Shown: piece by piece, positions 28,522 through 36,432 of the stretch | Layout of the letters: every line of letters begins with the position of its first letter | Position numbering within the stretch: the first letter of the stretch is position 1 | DNA from: Jaapia argillacea MUCL 33604 | Taxonomy: Eukaryota; Basidiomycota; Agaricomycetes; Jaapiales; Jaapiaceae | DNA length: 36,432 nt | Reading direction: 5' to 3' | Assembly: GCA_000697665.1 (NCBI GenBank) | Contig: KL197718.1 | Span: forward strand, 402,976-439,407 | Program-made: the position numbers and the translations under genes | Notes under the pieces: generated by a model | What the model saw: only the letters and a program-made list of their open reading frames with translations | Told to the model about the DNA's origin: nothing | The model's database searches: none

Positions 28522-31500
28522 CTACCTCCTCCCCAAACTCCTCCCCAGCCCATCAACCAAAACACCCTCCATCCCAGCACCCACCCTCATCCCCTCCTTC
28601 ATCCCCAACCCAACCCTCTCCATCCCTCCAAGCACACCCCTCCAAACACTCTCCTCCTCAGGTCCCCTAACACCTCTCATCCCAACCCCCCCATCCAATA
28701 CTCTCAAAGCGGCAAACGCAACAGGTAACCCGACACATAACGCCATAGCAGAATGTCGGGGCGTACCGTACGTCGTCAACGTTGATGTGTATATATGTTG
28801 TTCGGCCGGAGGCGAGGGCTGGGATGTCGGCGACGAAGGCTGAGAGGGTGGAGAAGATGGTCGAGCGACGATTTCATGATGAAGAATAACCATATCCCTC
28901 TCCCCCTCTCTATACTTCAACTTCTCCCCAAGAACCAAAGCAAACAATTCAATAGGCGCCACGGGCCTCCTCGGCAACGCCATACCAGTCCTCCCTCCCA
29001 AACTAGAAGGTAACATCCCCAACCAAGTAAGCGCCTCAATAACCTTCGGTGCAGCCTCCCTCCCAACAATACTCTTCAACTCCCTCAAAGTCGGTCCACC
29101 TTCCGGGACTGTATGTCCAAGGACCCCTTCAATCGCCCGTCGAGTGAGTGAAGACCACGAATCCAGTGGTTGGATCAAAGGCTCGAAACTGAGCAAGCCA
29201 ATTTGTTTGAAAGAATGCATCAACTCGCAAAAACCTGGGTATCTGCCGACCCAACATCATCGTCAAGCCACCGAAAGATTGAAAGAAAACTGACATACCT
29301 CAAAGTCCCTCTCAACACACTCCTCAGCGCACTAACATCCCCCATCCTATAAACCCCAGCATAAGGCAAACTATTCCTATTGGCCAATCCCTCCAACCTA
29401 AACTCATCAGAGATAGGAACCTCAGGGAAATATTGTTTCAAAATCTTCTCTCCGGGTATCTCATACTCCTACACCCAATCAACATCCCGAAGCCTGACAA
29501 CCGCACAGAGATGAAGACAACAACATACCTTGCCAGCCAACTTGAACTGCGCCCCTTGTAACGCAGCTCTCAAAACTCCCAGAACACTCCAACTAAACTT
29601 ATACCCAAGCGGTCCATGTCCACCTTCCTCCAAACTTCTCCCTGTACCACCACAACCACCACCCTCGACAAACTCAGGCGCAGGTAACCCCCCACAAAAC
29701 GACACGAACGACTCTACCTCCCTCCCCGCCGACCTAATATCATTCAACAGCGAAAGCGCCGAACAATGATCTACCCCCGGATCCAACCCAATCTCGTTCA
29801 AGATCAAAGTATCCGCCCCTAGCGCCCTAAATACGTTGGGAAAGGTGAGTGGGGTAAGGGGAAGGGGAAGGATGAGGAAGAACGGACCGTGCATGGAGGT
29901 CTTTCATGGGTGGAGAGATATACGAAGCAGTGATCATATGTTTCCTCCTCTCGATACATATCTCCGCGATAGAAGGGTGGAACGGAACCGGTAACAAACT
30001 ACCCAACGAAACCAAAACCAATAAACTCGGATTCCAAAAACAATATTAAAACACGAAACCTAAACTGACCTGACGACAACATCAGCTTCGTCAACCAACC
30101 CCCCAATCCTCTCTTTATCCTCCACATCAATAAGAACGGCTTTAACATTCTCTAACCCTTTCACCAACCGCTCAGCTTCATCCAACGAGTTACTCCCTAC
30201 ACCAAAATCCAGTCACGCGCCGAATATTCAACGAGAGGGGGCGCACCAACGATCAACTCGACATCACCCCTCTTTGCAATCTCCTCGATAGCAGGACCCG
30301 CTACCATCCCACTCTACGCAAGACAGATGAGCGACAGAAACAGCTAGAATGGAGGTACTCACACCAAGCATCAAAACCCTCTTCTTCTTAACCACCCCAT
30401 CACCTTTCTTACATCTCCCAACCACACCTTCCACCGCACTCTCCTCCTTCACGCCAACCTCCTCCCTCACCGTCCCCATAACACTCCTATCCCCCACCTC
30501 CCTCCCAGATTTATCCCCTTCCCCGATCACCCCCTCCCTCCACTTCCCCAAAGGACCCGTCAACCACCCAAACCCCCCACTCAGCTTTCCCCCTCTCACA
30601 ACCGTAGCCCTCTCCAACGCTCTACCCACTTCTCCTTCCACTTCCTCACCTACACCACCAAAAAATCGCCACCAAAAAAATCAGCACTCCCCCTTTCTCA
30701 CACGGACACGAAACAAAAAACTCACCTCGATACCCCCTAACAACACCCCCCACATACCTCCCCAACCCCTTACTAAAGTGCACACTAGCATCAAGCGGTA
30801 AACTCGCAGGTAAGATATCAACAGCCATAACCCTTACCCCTCCCAATTCTTTTGGTAAACAAGAAGGGAGGGTGGTGAAAGAGGGTTGAGAGAGTGTTGA
30901 GGGGTGGGGGAGGAATTGGAGGCCTCCCTATACGGGATGGTAGGGAAGTGAGCCTGAAAACCGATGGTAGGAAAGGAAGAAGGACGAACATGAACATCAC
31001 AGCTAACATCACCCACACACCTCCCCCTCATCCCCCCCAACCCATCAGCCTTCCTCAACGCCAAACCCAATTGTTCATTCGTCATCAACCTAGGGAACCC
31101 TTCCGACCACCCAGTTCCATTTAGCAGGAGGGTTAGGTAGGGGTAAACCTGCACACGCAAATCAACACGCATCAAACGCAATGAGCAAGCATCCAACAAA
31201 GAGCTCATATCTAAAGTAAACTGACCTTGTCCCCGAAATCGGACTTGTATAACCCAGGATTGGTATAATAATCACTCCTCTCATATTTCCCTCCATCCAT
31301 TCTTGAGAAATAATCTTTGGGGAGGGCGTGTACGAGGTATATCTACGCCCGGGATCATGTTAGAAACGGATAAACAGCGAATGCGGAGAGGAAGAGAAGT
31401 TGTGTAAGCAAGAGTAAATGGTAAGAACTAATACTAAGAAACAGCGAACGGAAGAAACAGCGTAGCACACACCTTCCTTAAATCCGTATCTAACCACGAA

Positions 31501-32648
31501 GAGAAACTTATCAGCTACTGCTACTCGAAGTGGGAGGAACGAAACTTCATACCAGGGTTCGAGACAAGACCCGGTAGATCCTTCACCTCAACTCTCACAA
31601 TGGGAAGTTCATCAAGGATACTCAGCATTCCTTGCGCTACCTTCCCCGTCCTATCCCCACAAAAAAATCAGCTCAAAGGAACGAAGCTCGATTCAGAACA
31701 CGCGTACCCAGTGACACCGATAACGACAGGACCCAATTCCCGTGGTGTCCCGTTCTCCACTATGAGGTTCCCTATTGATCGAAGGGAGGAACGGAGGGAG
31801 GGGATTGAGGGGTGGGTGTGTGGACGGGGTGTGTACTAGTTAGATGACATGAGTGAGATGAGAGGTGAAAGGGTGGAGGGGTGGGGGACGTACGAGGAAA
31901 GGAGACGATATACCCGCTTCGAGGTGGAGGTGTGCGAGAGTTGATAAAGATTCCAGGGCTCCCGCAACTAAACTCACATGATAAGCTAAATGCCATCGGG
32001 AAGTGTGAATGTATGCGAGGTACTGACCTCCAGCGAACCAACCAAACCCAACCGTCCTCTTCCCATCTTCACCTGTGAGTAATTCATAGTCGATTAACCG
32101 CGGTAGGGAATCGGAATCGTATGATAGGGGGTCAGGTGTGGGATGACCAGATACGAAACGGGATAGGAGGGGCATGTTGTATGGTTGTCCTTTGATTGTA
32201 TGCGAGAACATCAAGTGAGTTCTTGGCACTTTGGTTGAAGAGGAAGAGGATGGGGAGGGTACAGGTGAAGTGAGGAGTTCGTCAAGAGGCGTTTCCTTGA
32301 TTCCTATTATTATATGCGCGGGTTCGAGAGTGGGATGAACCTCTGCTCCAGCCTGACGCCGTGCCAAGCATCAACGAGACATGAAGACACGAAGGAAGGT
32401 GAAGCGCGTACCTTGACGAACTCATCAACTTTAAACACCCTCCTCGCACATTCCTGCACCAAAACTCTTACACCCTCTTTGCTCACGAGGTCATGAACGT
32501 CATCAGGAGTCAAAGGACACCTCCTCTCCCAAATCCTCGCAGGGTCTTCACGTCGTATACCGACGGTGACTCTGTGAGGGGCGGCGGTGGAGAGAGAACG
32601 ATGGGGGAGGAAGGAGAATGGAGAACGACGGAGGAGAGGGATGGTCAT
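28522..32648 (-). CDS. Bifunctional lysine-ketoglutarate reductase/saccharopine dehydrogenase (AASS-like)
   Basis: The start is at 32648 and the stop at 28522-28524, with many short introns (first exon 32648-32412, second beginning 32352). The first 22 residues (MTIPLLRRSPFSF, then HRSLSTAA) are Arg/Ser/Leu-rich without acids: a likely mitochondrial presequence. The LKR half shows GIRREDPARIWERRCPLTP, IIIGIKETP, MFSHTIKGQ, FGWFAGVAGALES, the nucleotide-binding GVTGTGKVAQG, and RCVGDVSCDV. A charged linker leads to the SDH half: VLMLGSGMVAGP (Rossmann start), KHMITASYISPPM, LILNEIGLDPGVDH, SFVSFCGGLPAPE and YKFSWSVLGVLRAALQGA. Together these are the two domains that convert lysine plus 2-oxoglutarate to saccharopine, then to aminoadipate semialdehyde plus glutamate. 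This one-protein form is best known from lysine degradation in animals and plants; fungal biosynthesis normally uses separate Lys1 and Lys9 proteins. Confidence 0.9.
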
Positions 32649-33095
32649 GGTTGAATATGGGGGGTGGAAGCGAGGCGGAGGGTGGGTTTATGGGATGAAG
32701 ATCCGGCCGGGACGTAGAGCTTCGTTGGCGGCTAAGATGTATTGAGTGTCCTCACCCCGGTTTTTACGGAACTTGGCACGCCGTTTGAGCGGGTCCTGCC
32801 ATCCTACGATGACATTACTAGCTCATCCCAGTCCCTGCCTTTAGAACGACGCGTCCGAATCGCGTCAATGTTGAAAAGCCATTGAGATTTGAGGTGGTCA
32901 GGGGCACGTCAGGGGACCGTCGCTCGATTCTGGGGGACCACGTGGCCATCCTCAGCCTCGTGTGGTTGTTCAAGTGACTTGAAGTCTCATGAAGTTCTCA
33001 GTCGCCAATATCTGCATATTCTGAAGTATTATTCTCTCTCTTACCCGACCACTGTACCAACAGCCAACGCCGACACCCTTATCTGACCTCGCCAC
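32649..33095. other. Upstream region of the LKR/SDH gene up to the hAT left end
   Basis: It contains the promoter of the minus-strand LKR/SDH gene and the flank of the transposon. No further gene is supported. The last eight nt before the element, CTCGCCAC (33088-33095), would be the left target-site copy if the element starts at 33096. Confidence 0.4.
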
Positions 33096-33119
33096 TAGTG
33101 TTGAGGAAAAAACCCATAG

Positions 33120-33165
33120 GTAAATTACCGAGGGTAAATTATAGAGTAAATTACTAGTAAATTAC
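33120..33165. repeat. Four subterminal GTAAATTA(C) direct repeats
   Basis: Copies at 33120-33128, 33134-33141, 33146-33154 and 33157-33165 are spaced 11-14 nt apart. Shorter GTAAA copies follow near 33197 and 33206. They are candidate transposase-binding sites. Confidence 0.65.
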
Positions 33166-33243
33166 CCTTGTTTACCGGGACGTCCACGAGAGGGGGTAAA
33201 GAATGGTAAAGAAACCTGCGTAGGTCAGGCCCTCCAGCGAGCA

Positions 33244-33804
33244 ATGTCTTGGGCGGCGGGACCGTCAGCGCAAATCAAATTTGAGGGTAGCGGCGGGCAA
33301 AAATGTATTGTAAATGAGAATTCTTCAATTCCCCTCCACCTCCTCATGGGCGACATTTGTGCAGACGACGACCAAGGCTTCAGGAAAGCCGAGGATCTCA
33401 CTCTGACATTGAGGGATGTCCCTCCGATCACCGAAGATTTCTTCCTCGAGGCACTCGCTATCCCCGTACTTCTCCTTCCTGCGCTCCTTCCAAAGGAGGA
33501 CGTATCTGTGGTGGACTTCGTTAATCGGAAACTTCCCCCTTTCACACCTGAAGAACCAATCAACTCACCAAAAGCACTCGACCTGTTGTTCTCCTTGGGC
33601 GATGCACCGGATCCGGATCCCACACCTGAGAAGCTCCTCCAGGTTACCGTACCTCCCCTGGACGACATACGCCGGCTTCTTGCGTCACACAGCCAAGCAT
33701 GGCTAAATGGCCAGAATTCGATTTCTCTCACCGGGCCCTCCATGGAGCCCGAGGTGCTTCCCGTTTGGGTGCTCACATACTGGGAGCGCCTCCACTGCTT
33801 GTGA
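33244..33804 (+). CDS. N-terminal segment of the Ulp1/hAT protein, ended by an in-frame TGA
   Basis: This 186-codon frame starts at ATG 33244. It contains no catalytic motif but has a helical, Leu/Asp-rich character, and ends with LPVWVLTYWERLHCL, a segment that in fungal Ulp1-type proteins leads straight into the next helix. The same frame continues beyond the TGA at 33802-33804 with HREWQRAWTWFKKKRVAPQ and then the protease domain. No intron of usable length and phase removes the stop. The simplest reading is a nonsense mutation splitting one ancestral gene; CGA to TGA at a CpG is a likely route. A strain polymorphism or assembly error is also possible. Confidence 0.6.
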   Translation: MSWAAGPSAQIKFEGSGGQKCIVNENSSIPLHLLMGDICADDDQGFRKAEDLTLTLRDVPPITEDFFLEALAIPVLLLPALLPKEDVSVVDFVNRKLPPFTPEEPINSPKALDLLFSLGDAPDPDPTPEKLLQVTVPPLDDIRRLLASHSQAWLNGQNSISLTGPSMEPEVLPVWVLTYWERLHCL

Positions 33805-36432
33805 GGCACGCACCGAGAATGGCAGCGTGCTTGGACGTGGTTCAAGAAAAAGAGGGTGGCCCCTCAAGCTGTTCGACGAGTTGAGTATGACCAGACGGAG
33901 TACTATCTTCGGTCTTTCACTTGGGAGGGGGAGTTGGGTTTGAATGCAGATCAGGGGAAGAATGTTTCGTTAGCCCATTACTTCAGCCAGGATTGGTTCA
34001 ATGATATTCATATGAACGAACTCATCTCCGTACTCGATCACGAAATCTCCGATTCATCCCTCTACCTCCCACAAAATCACCTCCTCCTCACAACCTACAG
34101 CACCAAGAGACTACGAGACACATACCAGCGCTCGGAGGAAACCCCTTATTCAGCAGAGAACTACCTTTGGAAGATCGGCACCAGCCTCAGCGTTGGTGGG
34201 CTTGAGGTCGTTGCAGGGATCTTTTTGGTTGGGGGGAACCACTGGGTGGCAGTTGTTGTCGAGGTTATGAAGCGGAATGTGCTATATGGCGATTCGTTCG
34301 GAGCACCACCGGACTCGACCATTGTTGCGGCGTTAATGTGGTGGCTTGCCCAACACGTTTCAGGCGAGTTCTCGTTATCGGAGCTTGGGGTGGCGAAACA
34401 GCAGGATTCATTTTCGTGTGGATTGCTTGCATTCAACGCCCTCGCTGTCTACTTTTTACCCAGCCAGTACAGTTTGCTTGATTCCACTGAGACATCATGC
34501 GACTTTGGGAGGATGGCCATGTTTCGGCGAGTCCTACGATGCATCCAGGTGAGTTTACTCATTAAATTTATGTGTATGAGAGACCTGAAATGTATTGTAC
34601 AGACGAAACAATTCTATGAACGCATGGCGCTCCTCAGTAGCACCAAGTCACCTGACAATACGCAACCGGCTTCCCCTCCGTTGACGACAGACCTGCCCAT
34701 CTTGCTCGCTGACCTCACTCTGACCCCCAAGCGACCATCTGCGCCGAAGCGTCCCCACGAGGATGTGGCATCGCCCACAACCGAGAGAACTCCTGCAATG
34801 GAGCCAGATGCACCGGCAAGCCCCAGCATCTCTCGCAGCCCAAAGAAGAAGAAGATCAAGACTCTAGGGCCCTCAAAACCTTCAAAGGCAAAGACATTGA
34901 CTTTGAAAGGGCGAAAGTCAAAGCCGCAGAGTTCCATGAAACAATCATCACTTCACGTGTCGTTTTCCAGTCTCGCCACCAAGAACCAGACTTTGGTGAG
35001 TCTTCAAATCTTTCTTATCTTCCCAAATTTCTAATGAGTCTTGTAGGCTTCAATTAGCGCCTCTAACGAAGATAATGACTCGGAGAGCAGCGCCAACAAT
35101 ACATCTAATCGACCTCACACCAAATCTGTTGGTCGACCCCGTATCACCCTCCTCGATGACATCACCATTACTGTTCCAACGAATGATCCAGCCAAGTCCA
35201 CGTATCGCTGTGCGGGAACAAAGTGTACAAAAACATGGTCGAATCGCAATAGTGCTCGCATTTTTGCCCATGCTAGTCTCTGTCGTGGTCTCAAGTCAGC
35301 GGTGAGGAAGGCGATCTCAGCGAGAAGTGCCGGAAAGTCGCTAGGGGCACAGATGGCGAGAGCCGATTCTACTGTCACAACTGCCCCTCCACCTGATCCA
35401 TCAGTGGTGGCAGTTGAGGAATTTGATGCTAGGCCCACGTCTCACGCATTTGATACGTTCAAAACACAGGGCCACATCGACCTTCAAACAAAACTTGACT
35501 TTGCAATCATGAAGTTTGTCTGTGTTTGTGGTATCCCCCCTCATGTTGTTGACCTTGAAGAGTTCAAGAATATCCTTGCTGTGGCCAACAGCAACTACAA
35601 CCCTGTTTCGAGGACAACCCTTGTCGATGTCCATATTACTCGTGAGTGTGAACACATACGTGCCAAGCAAATCAAGATTCTCTCCACGGAGCGAAACCTC
35701 ACCCTTGGCTTTGATGGAGGGAGTACCATGGTGAAGTACGCCTTCTATACTGTCTCGGTAAACACCACGGATCAAAGGAAGTTTTTTCTCGAGGGAGAAG
35801 ATTGTACGGGGGTCATTCATTCCGGGGTTTGGATTAAGGATCTACTTCTTGATGTAAGTGCCAGTAGCTGCCGCTCTGCCCTGACCTCACCACGACTTTG
35901 CTTTATTTGTCAGGTGATGCAACGTGTTGGAACCGCTCGCTTCGCTGGTGTCTCATCCGATAATACGGGGAATACACAGGTTGCTCGACGCGAGCTATGC
36001 CTTGCCGTGAAGACCCTTATAAATGTGCCTGACCCAATCCATCTCATCAATAATGCCATCCAAGATATTGTCCTTCTTCCGTTCTTCAACGATGTAAGTG
36101 AAAGTTCTTGTTGCTCGATCTATATTAACCGGCTTCATTAGGTCAAGACAAAGTTGCGAGGTGTCATCAAGTTTTTCAACAAGTCAACAGCTGCCACGAC
36201 AGCTCTACGTACTGAGCGTAAGAAGCGAAACATTGGACAGGGCCTTCAGTCAATTGGGAAAACTCGCTTCGGAACTTTGATCATCTCCGCGATTTCGTTG
36301 CGCCGTTCGCTTGAAGCAATTCACGATCTTGTGGCATCTGGCAACATTGACATTGATGTAAGCGTGATTCTAAATCTACATCGACCCCATTTTTTGAACT
36401 GTCCTCAAATCAGACACATGCCGAGCACTTCA
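33805..36432 (+). CDS. Ulp1-like cysteine protease - BED-like finger - hAT (DUF659) transposase, 3' partial
   Basis: The frame follows 33244-33804 after a stop; the first ATG in frame is near 34012. Introns: 34549-34602, 34996-35046, 35854-35913, 36094-36141 and 36358-36413. The C48 protease part shows His (GGNHW, 34240), Asp (YGDSFG, 34291), Gln (34399) and Cys (QQDSFSCG, 34417), so the whole catalytic set is present. A basic stretch (SPKKKKIKTLG) is probably a nuclear signal. Next comes a BED-like finger (YRCAGTKC ... HASLC) and then a hAT transposase with LGFDGGS (first Asp, 35713) and GVSSDNTGN (second Asp, 35959), followed by the LINNAIQDI helix. The C-terminus with the third catalytic Glu and the dimerisation domain lies outside the window. 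The transposase would cut and paste the element; the protease may act on SUMO-like conjugates or on the fusion itself, which is speculation. Confidence 0.78.

Follow-up and report, generated by a model that had tools for sequence, protein, structure and literature searches.

Ulp1-type proteases have been described in several kinds of mobile element, and among the closest of these to the locus analyzed here is Ginger1 of Hydra and others, a TIR element in which an Ulp1 or OTU domain lies in one protein with the transposase (PMC2836005). The hAT-type element described below resembles Ginger1 in that the Ulp1 protease and the transposase are predicted to lie in the same protein within a TIR element. 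However, the Ginger1 transposase is Gypsy-integrase-like, the protease is C-terminal and the families tabulated are animal (PMC2836005). Ulp1 domains are also carried by MULEs (KAONASHI; melon, rice and grapevine) and by CACTA elements, and rice proteins with both Tnp2 and ULP1 are reported (PMC2528002). What these plant elements share with the fused hAT is an Ulp1 domain inside a DNA transposon, whereas they belong to other transposase superfamilies, some families carry the domain in reverse orientation, and the domains are termed transduplicated gene fragments (PMC2528002). The oomycete CryptonF and CryptonS likewise have a C48 peptidase in a mobile element, and domain shuffling between groups was considered; they differ in using a tyrosine recombinase with no DDE transposase, and the CryptonS peptidase is an additional protein (PMC3212892). 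Finally, the fungal transposons with TET/JBP genes, hAT7 among them, are alike in that an accessory enzyme gene occurs across many superfamilies. They differ in that the enzyme is a dioxygenase and the duplications are of 7 bp; in three hAT7 families the enzyme gene precedes the transposase and points the same way (PMC12730594).

An Ulp1 domain joined to a transposase is already known from Ginger1 and from Tnp2/CACTA proteins, as is an association with MULEs and Cryptons. To our knowledge, the role of Ulp1-type proteases in Mutator, CACTA, Ginger1 and Crypton elements is unproven. A search of the full-text literature, a scope to which Repbase reports and most subscription papers do not belong, returned no hAT-Ulp1 fusion named in the titles or abstract openings among the matches listed. 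The sequence-only reading that preceded this work had also counted KDZ elements among the carriers of Ulp1 passengers, which was not confirmed, as "ulp" does not occur in the passages of KDZ-related literature that were searched.

The stretch of DNA analyzed here (the window) comprises 36,432 nucleotides of Jaapia argillacea MUCL 33604 contig KL197718.1 (C10:402976-439407), and all genome searches were made within this one 43.7-Mb genome, whose introns and transposons look like those of a basidiomycete. The flagged gene region makes up the 5' portion of a hAT-type transposon of 5,252 bp, which extends from window position 33096 to C10:441322, ~2 kb beyond the window end. A second full copy of 4,963 bp lies at C6:1381878-1386840 and has identities of 93.8% and 95.4% in the two aligning blocks; searches of the genome with left-end and with right-end DNA each returned the C10 and C6 places only. 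In the genome record both copies are readable in part. Both full copies are surrounded by a perfect 8-bp TSD (2/2; CTCGCCAC on C10 and TTTCACCA on C6), and both start with TAGTGTTGAGGAAAAAAC and finish with its near-perfect inverse. The TIRs of hAT elements are short and have a (C/T)A(A/G)NG-type start. The short TIR seen here, TAGTGTTG(A/G)GGAAAAAAC, 17/18 paired, agrees with this consensus, and the 8-bp TSD is of the hAT length. The left end of the element contains the following features:

33088-33095, no strand: left TSD copy CTCGCCAC; the right copy lies beyond the window end at C10:441323-441330.
33096-33113, + strand: left TIR TAGTGTTGAGGAAAAAAC, 17/18 against the right end at C10:441305-441322.
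33120-33165, + strand: three subterminal GTAAATTAC repeats at 33120, 33146 and 33157, candidate transposase binding sites.

Three occurrences of GTAAATTAC compare with 0.12 expected in the window. The motif GTAAWTTAC is present five times in the C10 copy and six times in the C6 copy, always within ~100 bp of the ends and nowhere else in the readable part. Chance is a poor explanation for the protease and transposase lying together, because the arrangement recurs in two TIR-bounded copies at separate places. That the protease might belong to a host Ulp1 gene rather than to a transposon was considered and rejected, as the gene lies within TIRs and TSDs at two places.

Between these ends a single gene model can be drawn, which leads from an N-domain of ~150 aa and a C48 protease through a basic linker and a zinc-finger-like motif to a DUF659/hAT transposase. 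Once five phase-0 introns, all canonical and 48 to 60 nt long, are removed, a single frame runs from 33244 beyond the window end, save for one TGA. The features of this model are as follows:

33244-34548, + strand: exon 1 of the splice model, N-domain and C48 protease, broken by one TGA.
33403-33846, + strand: N-domain, common to the modules on C5 and at C6:328k and, more weakly, to that of a pogo element.
33802-33804, + strand: in-frame TGA between N-domain and protease in the C10 copy only; a sense codon in the C6 copy.
33994-34470, + strand: Peptidase_C48 (Ulp1-type) domain, by PF02902 match.
34549-34602, + strand: intron 1, 54 nt, GTGAGT...CAG; in frame and open too in the C10 copy.
34603-34995, + strand: exon 2 of the splice model, end of the protease region and the basic linker, which is rich in Ser/Thr/Pro and contains a KKKK run.
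34996-35046, + strand: intron 2, 51 nt, joining protease-side to transposase-side exons; the C6 copy retains both splice sites.
35047-35853, + strand: exon 3 of the splice model, with the zinc-finger-like motif and the beginning of the transposase core.
35209-35283, + strand: BED-like finger motif C-x4-C ... H-x4-C, by motif only.
35644-36159, + strand: DUF659/hAT core, introns included, by DUF659 match and 33% identity to a relative on C17.
35914-36093 and 36142-36357, + strand: exons 4 and 5 of the transposase in the splice model.
36414-36432, + strand: start of exon 6 in the splice model, the gene continuing past the window end.

The presence of an Ulp1 protease and a hAT transposase in one element is well supported, because of the TIRs, the 8-bp TSD at 2/2 copies and the intron 2 splice sites kept in both copies. 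A further question is whether the two are also one gene. If they were two genes or two transcripts inside the same element, a separate transposase could start at one of the linker Met codons at 34624, 34798 and 34936. However, the protease and transposase frames are separated by only the 51-nt canonical intron, exon 3 has no in-frame Met before the finger (the first, at 35353, is downstream of the motif), and in the related module at C6:328k (L013) a single 1,059-aa frame takes in N-domain and protease and continues into and past a finger-like region. Two genes therefore appear highly unlikely. With only a 51-nt intron between the frames, and no Met in the transposase exon until past the finger, the sequence is best modelled as a single gene, from which one mRNA and one protein would follow. 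Near the right end there is a frame with a C-terminal stretch matching the C17 relative at 28/54 residues, and an acidic frame closes ~200 bp before the element end. Open frames over most of the readable element leave little room for a second gene, and these last frames are probably part of the same one. The earlier claim that one gene joins an Ulp1 protease to a hAT transposase therefore stands insofar as phase-0 exons join both within one element, but the frame said to run without break is interrupted by the TGA in exon 1.

The protease matches Peptidase_C48 (PF02902) at 2.5e-07, with 31.2 bits against a cut-off of 20.7, and its catalytic residues are His 34240-42, Asp 34291-93, Gln 34399-401 and Cys 34417-19. 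All four are invariant across four aligned transposon-borne modules, and with the domain match they place the protein in C48. The His-Asp-Gln-Cys set is present as described earlier, but "intact" and "without break" do not hold for the C10 copy, whose frame is broken. Sequence matches of the protease in the PDB are weak (best ULP_PROTEASE entry 0.036; Ulp1, 1euv, 0.42), single-sequence structure models were unusable (pLDDT 35.1 and 34.3), and the N-domain matches no Pfam family.

The C48 clan also includes viral processing proteases, and the long flexible linker would be a plausible cut site, so the protease could in principle cut the fusion itself and free the transposase from a polyprotein, as the sequence-only reading had suggested. 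The distribution of candidate sites speaks against this proposal: of three GG sites in the readable protein, two lie inside the protease fold and one at the DGG motif of the transposase, and the sole adenain-like match (LVGG) adjoins the catalytic His. With neither kind of site in the linker, processing of a polyprotein is disfavoured and we give it scarcely any weight. Scans of viral contigs with the protease half and with the transposase half returned no relative of either.

After splicing, the transposase part gives a DUF659 match of 29.5 bits (7e-07), below the Pfam curated cut-off of 34.7. The two Asp residues noted previously were found again, at 35713-15 and 35959-61, in motifs common with the C17 relative; the Glu of a D-D-E triad did not appear in the readable part of the transposase. 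At E up to 1 the core gave no sequence match in the PDB, and at E up to 0.5 none to an integrase family, and so lacks the Gypsy-integrase-like core of Ginger1. No Pfam hAT match (Dimer_Tnp_hAT region) was found at E up to 1 in the four readable C-terminal pieces, and the genome, searched with PF04937, yielded none, perhaps since introns split the domain. The finger is BED-like by its C-x4-C ... H-x4-C motif, but its region has no Pfam BED match at E up to 0.5. The earlier designation as a DUF659/hAT transposase is thereby kept, with a domain score that falls short of the cut-off, and the assignment to hAT is carried by TSD length and TIR together with DUF659.

The C17 relative is 33% identical in the transposase core and 52% identical in the C-terminal stretch. 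This DUF659-type hAT differs from the fused element in that no protease match turned up across the readable sequence of a 10-kb stretch, which indicates that not all such transposases need one. No TIR pair was found for it in a search limited to TAG/CAG ends and 8-bp duplications with at most one mismatch.

Does the same protease module occur with other transposases? By hhalign, the N-domain of the hAT element matches the C5/C6:328k alignment at E 4e-11, and the C5/C6:328k N-domain in turn matches that of a pogo-type element at 1.7e-06; the same comparison with a frame of a C45 locus gave nothing. The pogo-type element (L030:3521-8318, on C6) has the TIR CTGTACCATTACGA and TA on both sides. 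Within it the order is a protease frame (C48 16.5 bits, below the cut-off) and then DDE_1 at 1.2e-05, such that the N-domain and protease module lies 5' of a pogo-type DDE_1 transposase in a TA-flanked element. A diverged partial match on C14, at a locus of which much is unreadable in the genome record, has the left part of the pogo element in common. On C45 the module is split into an N-terminal match (89024-89611) and a protease match (96296-96772), with a Plavaka transposase frame (3e-26) between the halves and DDE_1 (7.8e-10) after them, which looks like a protease-pogo element into which a Plavaka has inserted. At C6:328k the 1,059-aa frame is uninterrupted, its protease scores 19.7 bits, just below the cut-off, and it is followed by frames without Pfam match, a context that recurs at C1:334k. 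From these two diverged copies, the unclassified protein may be a transposase. A MULE transposase (8.2e-10) at C14:71k is preceded by a frame that resembles Ulp1 weakly (4.3e-4) and has no Pfam match, and a FAR1 match there is slightly below the cut-off. The C5 module scores 25.8 bits and has no transposase among the two frames of at least 200 aa in 10 kb. TIR searches at the C5, C45 and L013/L032 loci gave no convincing pair. The strongest C48 match of the genome is on C19, and a locus on C3 looks like a cellular Ulp2-type gene.

The N-domain and protease are best read, on these comparisons, as a portable accessory module. We tentatively extend this to a broader proposal that we hold to be possible though short of probable, namely that a portable N-domain and Ulp1-type protease has been joined in front of several unrelated transposases (hAT and pogo-type DDE_1, likely the unclassified protein, possibly MULE) and would serve as a shared counter-silencing or repair-steering device traded among transposons, like the TET/JBP genes in fungi. 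A module shared across transposase superfamilies is the part worth following, and one homologous protease module before unrelated transposases in one genome offers a ready-made comparison. Should the module promote transposition irrespective of the catalytic core, one would expect it to act on a shared host factor, perhaps one in SUMO-dependent silencing or repair.

The interruptions in the two full copies bear on the history of the gene. In the C6 copy, other TGAs occur at positions equivalent to 33814 and 33922, along with indels near 33235, 33331, 33711, 35404 and 36225 and a lost intron 4 donor. At the site of the C10 TGA, the relatives L012, L013 and L030 are open in a continuous four-way alignment, and the C6:328k and C6:603k modules align with the C10 sequence through it without a change of register (2.2e-24 and 2.2e-28). 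An intron at 33802 instead of a stop was also considered. Ten in-frame GT..AG pairs surround the TGA, of which the best donor is GTGAGG at 33801, and the sole in-frame acceptor for it between 33840 and 33960 is 33854 (54 nt). This candidate was rejected, as the C6 copy lacks such a donor and has a sense codon there, and as the relatives' continuity and the one-register matches run through the same stretch. By these alignments, the TGA at 33802-33804 is a nonsense change private to the C10 copy. Since the interruptions in the two copies do not coincide, their parent probably had an open frame through this site. Both visible copies are decayed and probably dead, and neither should be assumed active.

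Such damage raises the possibility that the element captured the protease once and has since carried it as a passive or decaying passenger that plays no part in transposition, the stops marking its loss. In the codon alignment the stops do fall within the protease or next to it (33802 in C10, 33814 and 33922 in C6), none occurs in either copy among the readable transposase codons compared, and the hAT relative on C17 does without the protease. However, the C6 copy is damaged on the transposase side too, by a 7-bp deletion and the intron 4 donor loss, the four catalytic residues are invariant in the four aligned modules, and the order of module and then other protein recurs with an unrelated transposase. 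The 178 substitutions between the two copies include 150 transitions, 77 of these of CpG type, and dN/dS between them (codons with stop, gap or N excluded; small counts) is 0.41 for the N-domain, with 7 synonymous and 9 nonsynonymous changes, 0.33 for C48, 0.22 for the linker and 0.24 for the finger and hAT part. The protease value, small counts included, argues against a passenger, and both halves look constrained before decay. For these reasons we consider a mere passenger unlikely.

How, then, would a protease serve a transposase to which it is tethered? We consider it reasonably likely that this hAT transposon gene, with its N-domain, C48 protease, linker, finger and DUF659/hAT transposase, encodes a tethered protease that acts at the transposon ends and is probably a deSUMOylase. 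In this model, the finger, perhaps with the linker, would bind the subterminal GTAAWTTAC repeats and so carry the fusion to the transposon ends, where the protease would remove SUMO or a related modifier from host proteins. Removal of SUMO would then counter silencing or help excision and repair. The host factor HMGXB4 activates Sleeping Beauty transposition, and SUMOylation is reported to dampen this activation (PMC10138897); for the Ulp1 and OTU domains of transposases, the Ginger work suggests a possible role in activating DNA repair factors as transposition proceeds (PMC2836005). No psi-K-x-E site was found in the readable protein from the protease onward, so the transposase itself is no obvious SUMO target and host substrates are favoured. 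C48 enzymes are mostly deconjugases, and since SUMO also mitigates the HMGXB4 activation of Sleeping Beauty, removal of SUMO from host factors would be the most likely act of the protease; its substrate could instead be NEDD8, ubiquitin or a peptide.

The ends of the fused element are also found on smaller elements. A TIR search of the genome with at most one mismatch returned nine sites, four of which are the ends of the two full copies, and the other five belong to short elements of 356, 373, 388, 707 and 873 bp with near-identical TIR, one of which is mostly unreadable in its interior. A perfect 8-bp TSD flanks four of the five, and each has five to seven subterminal GTAAWTTAC repeats. Counted over all seven elements the motif occurs 5-7 times in each, against 0 in 118,208 bases of other DNA given the same count. 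Against the interior of the fused element the short elements match at chance level only (E 0.7 or worse), and alignment is confined to pieces within ~105 bp of either of its ends (71-100% identity, best E 3.7e-5). By these features the five resemble non-autonomous hAT elements, which suggests that a transposase of this end specificity was once active in trans.

Comparison of the two copies of the fused element, located in the window (contig C10) and on contig C6, reveals that 115 of 1619 sites differ after the protease exon and 63 of 1505 before it (Fisher p = 4.8e-4). The additional differences past this exon are concentrated in the linker and finger region (window 34603-35495), where the raised divergence may reflect fast evolution or recombination between elements.

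The window copy lies beside a candidate host gene:

Window 28525-32687, minus strand: divergent frame or frames with Pfam matches AlaDh_PNT_N and Sacchrp_dh_C; transposon side at 33088

The AlaDh_PNT_N match (2.8e-06) is just below the cut-off, and the transposon is positioned ~0.4 kb upstream of this frame; the Sacchrp_dh_C match (1e-23) lies on the same strand, 3 kb further along. If these belong to a single gene, its domains may specify a bifunctional lysine-degradation enzyme, and the transposon may have inserted in its likely promoter.

Short elements also carry hAT-type ends:

L042-L046 (contigs C12, C24, C26, C43 and C53): five TIR elements of 356-873 bp that contain GTAAWTTAC repeats

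Their alignment to the fused element is confined to stretches close to its ends, and no autonomous partner was found for them besides it.

The protease module of the fused element also precedes an unclassified protein:

L013:3905-9051 and L032:4240-8358: unclassified protein behind the protease module

The two loci share about 77-81% DNA identity. For this protein none of the scanned frames matched a Pfam family at E up to 0.5, and it could represent an undescribed transposase family.

L016 (C45:91500-101400): Plavaka transposase frame inside a split protease-pogo element

Because this frame separates the two protease-pogo halves, the arrangement suggests a nested insertion.
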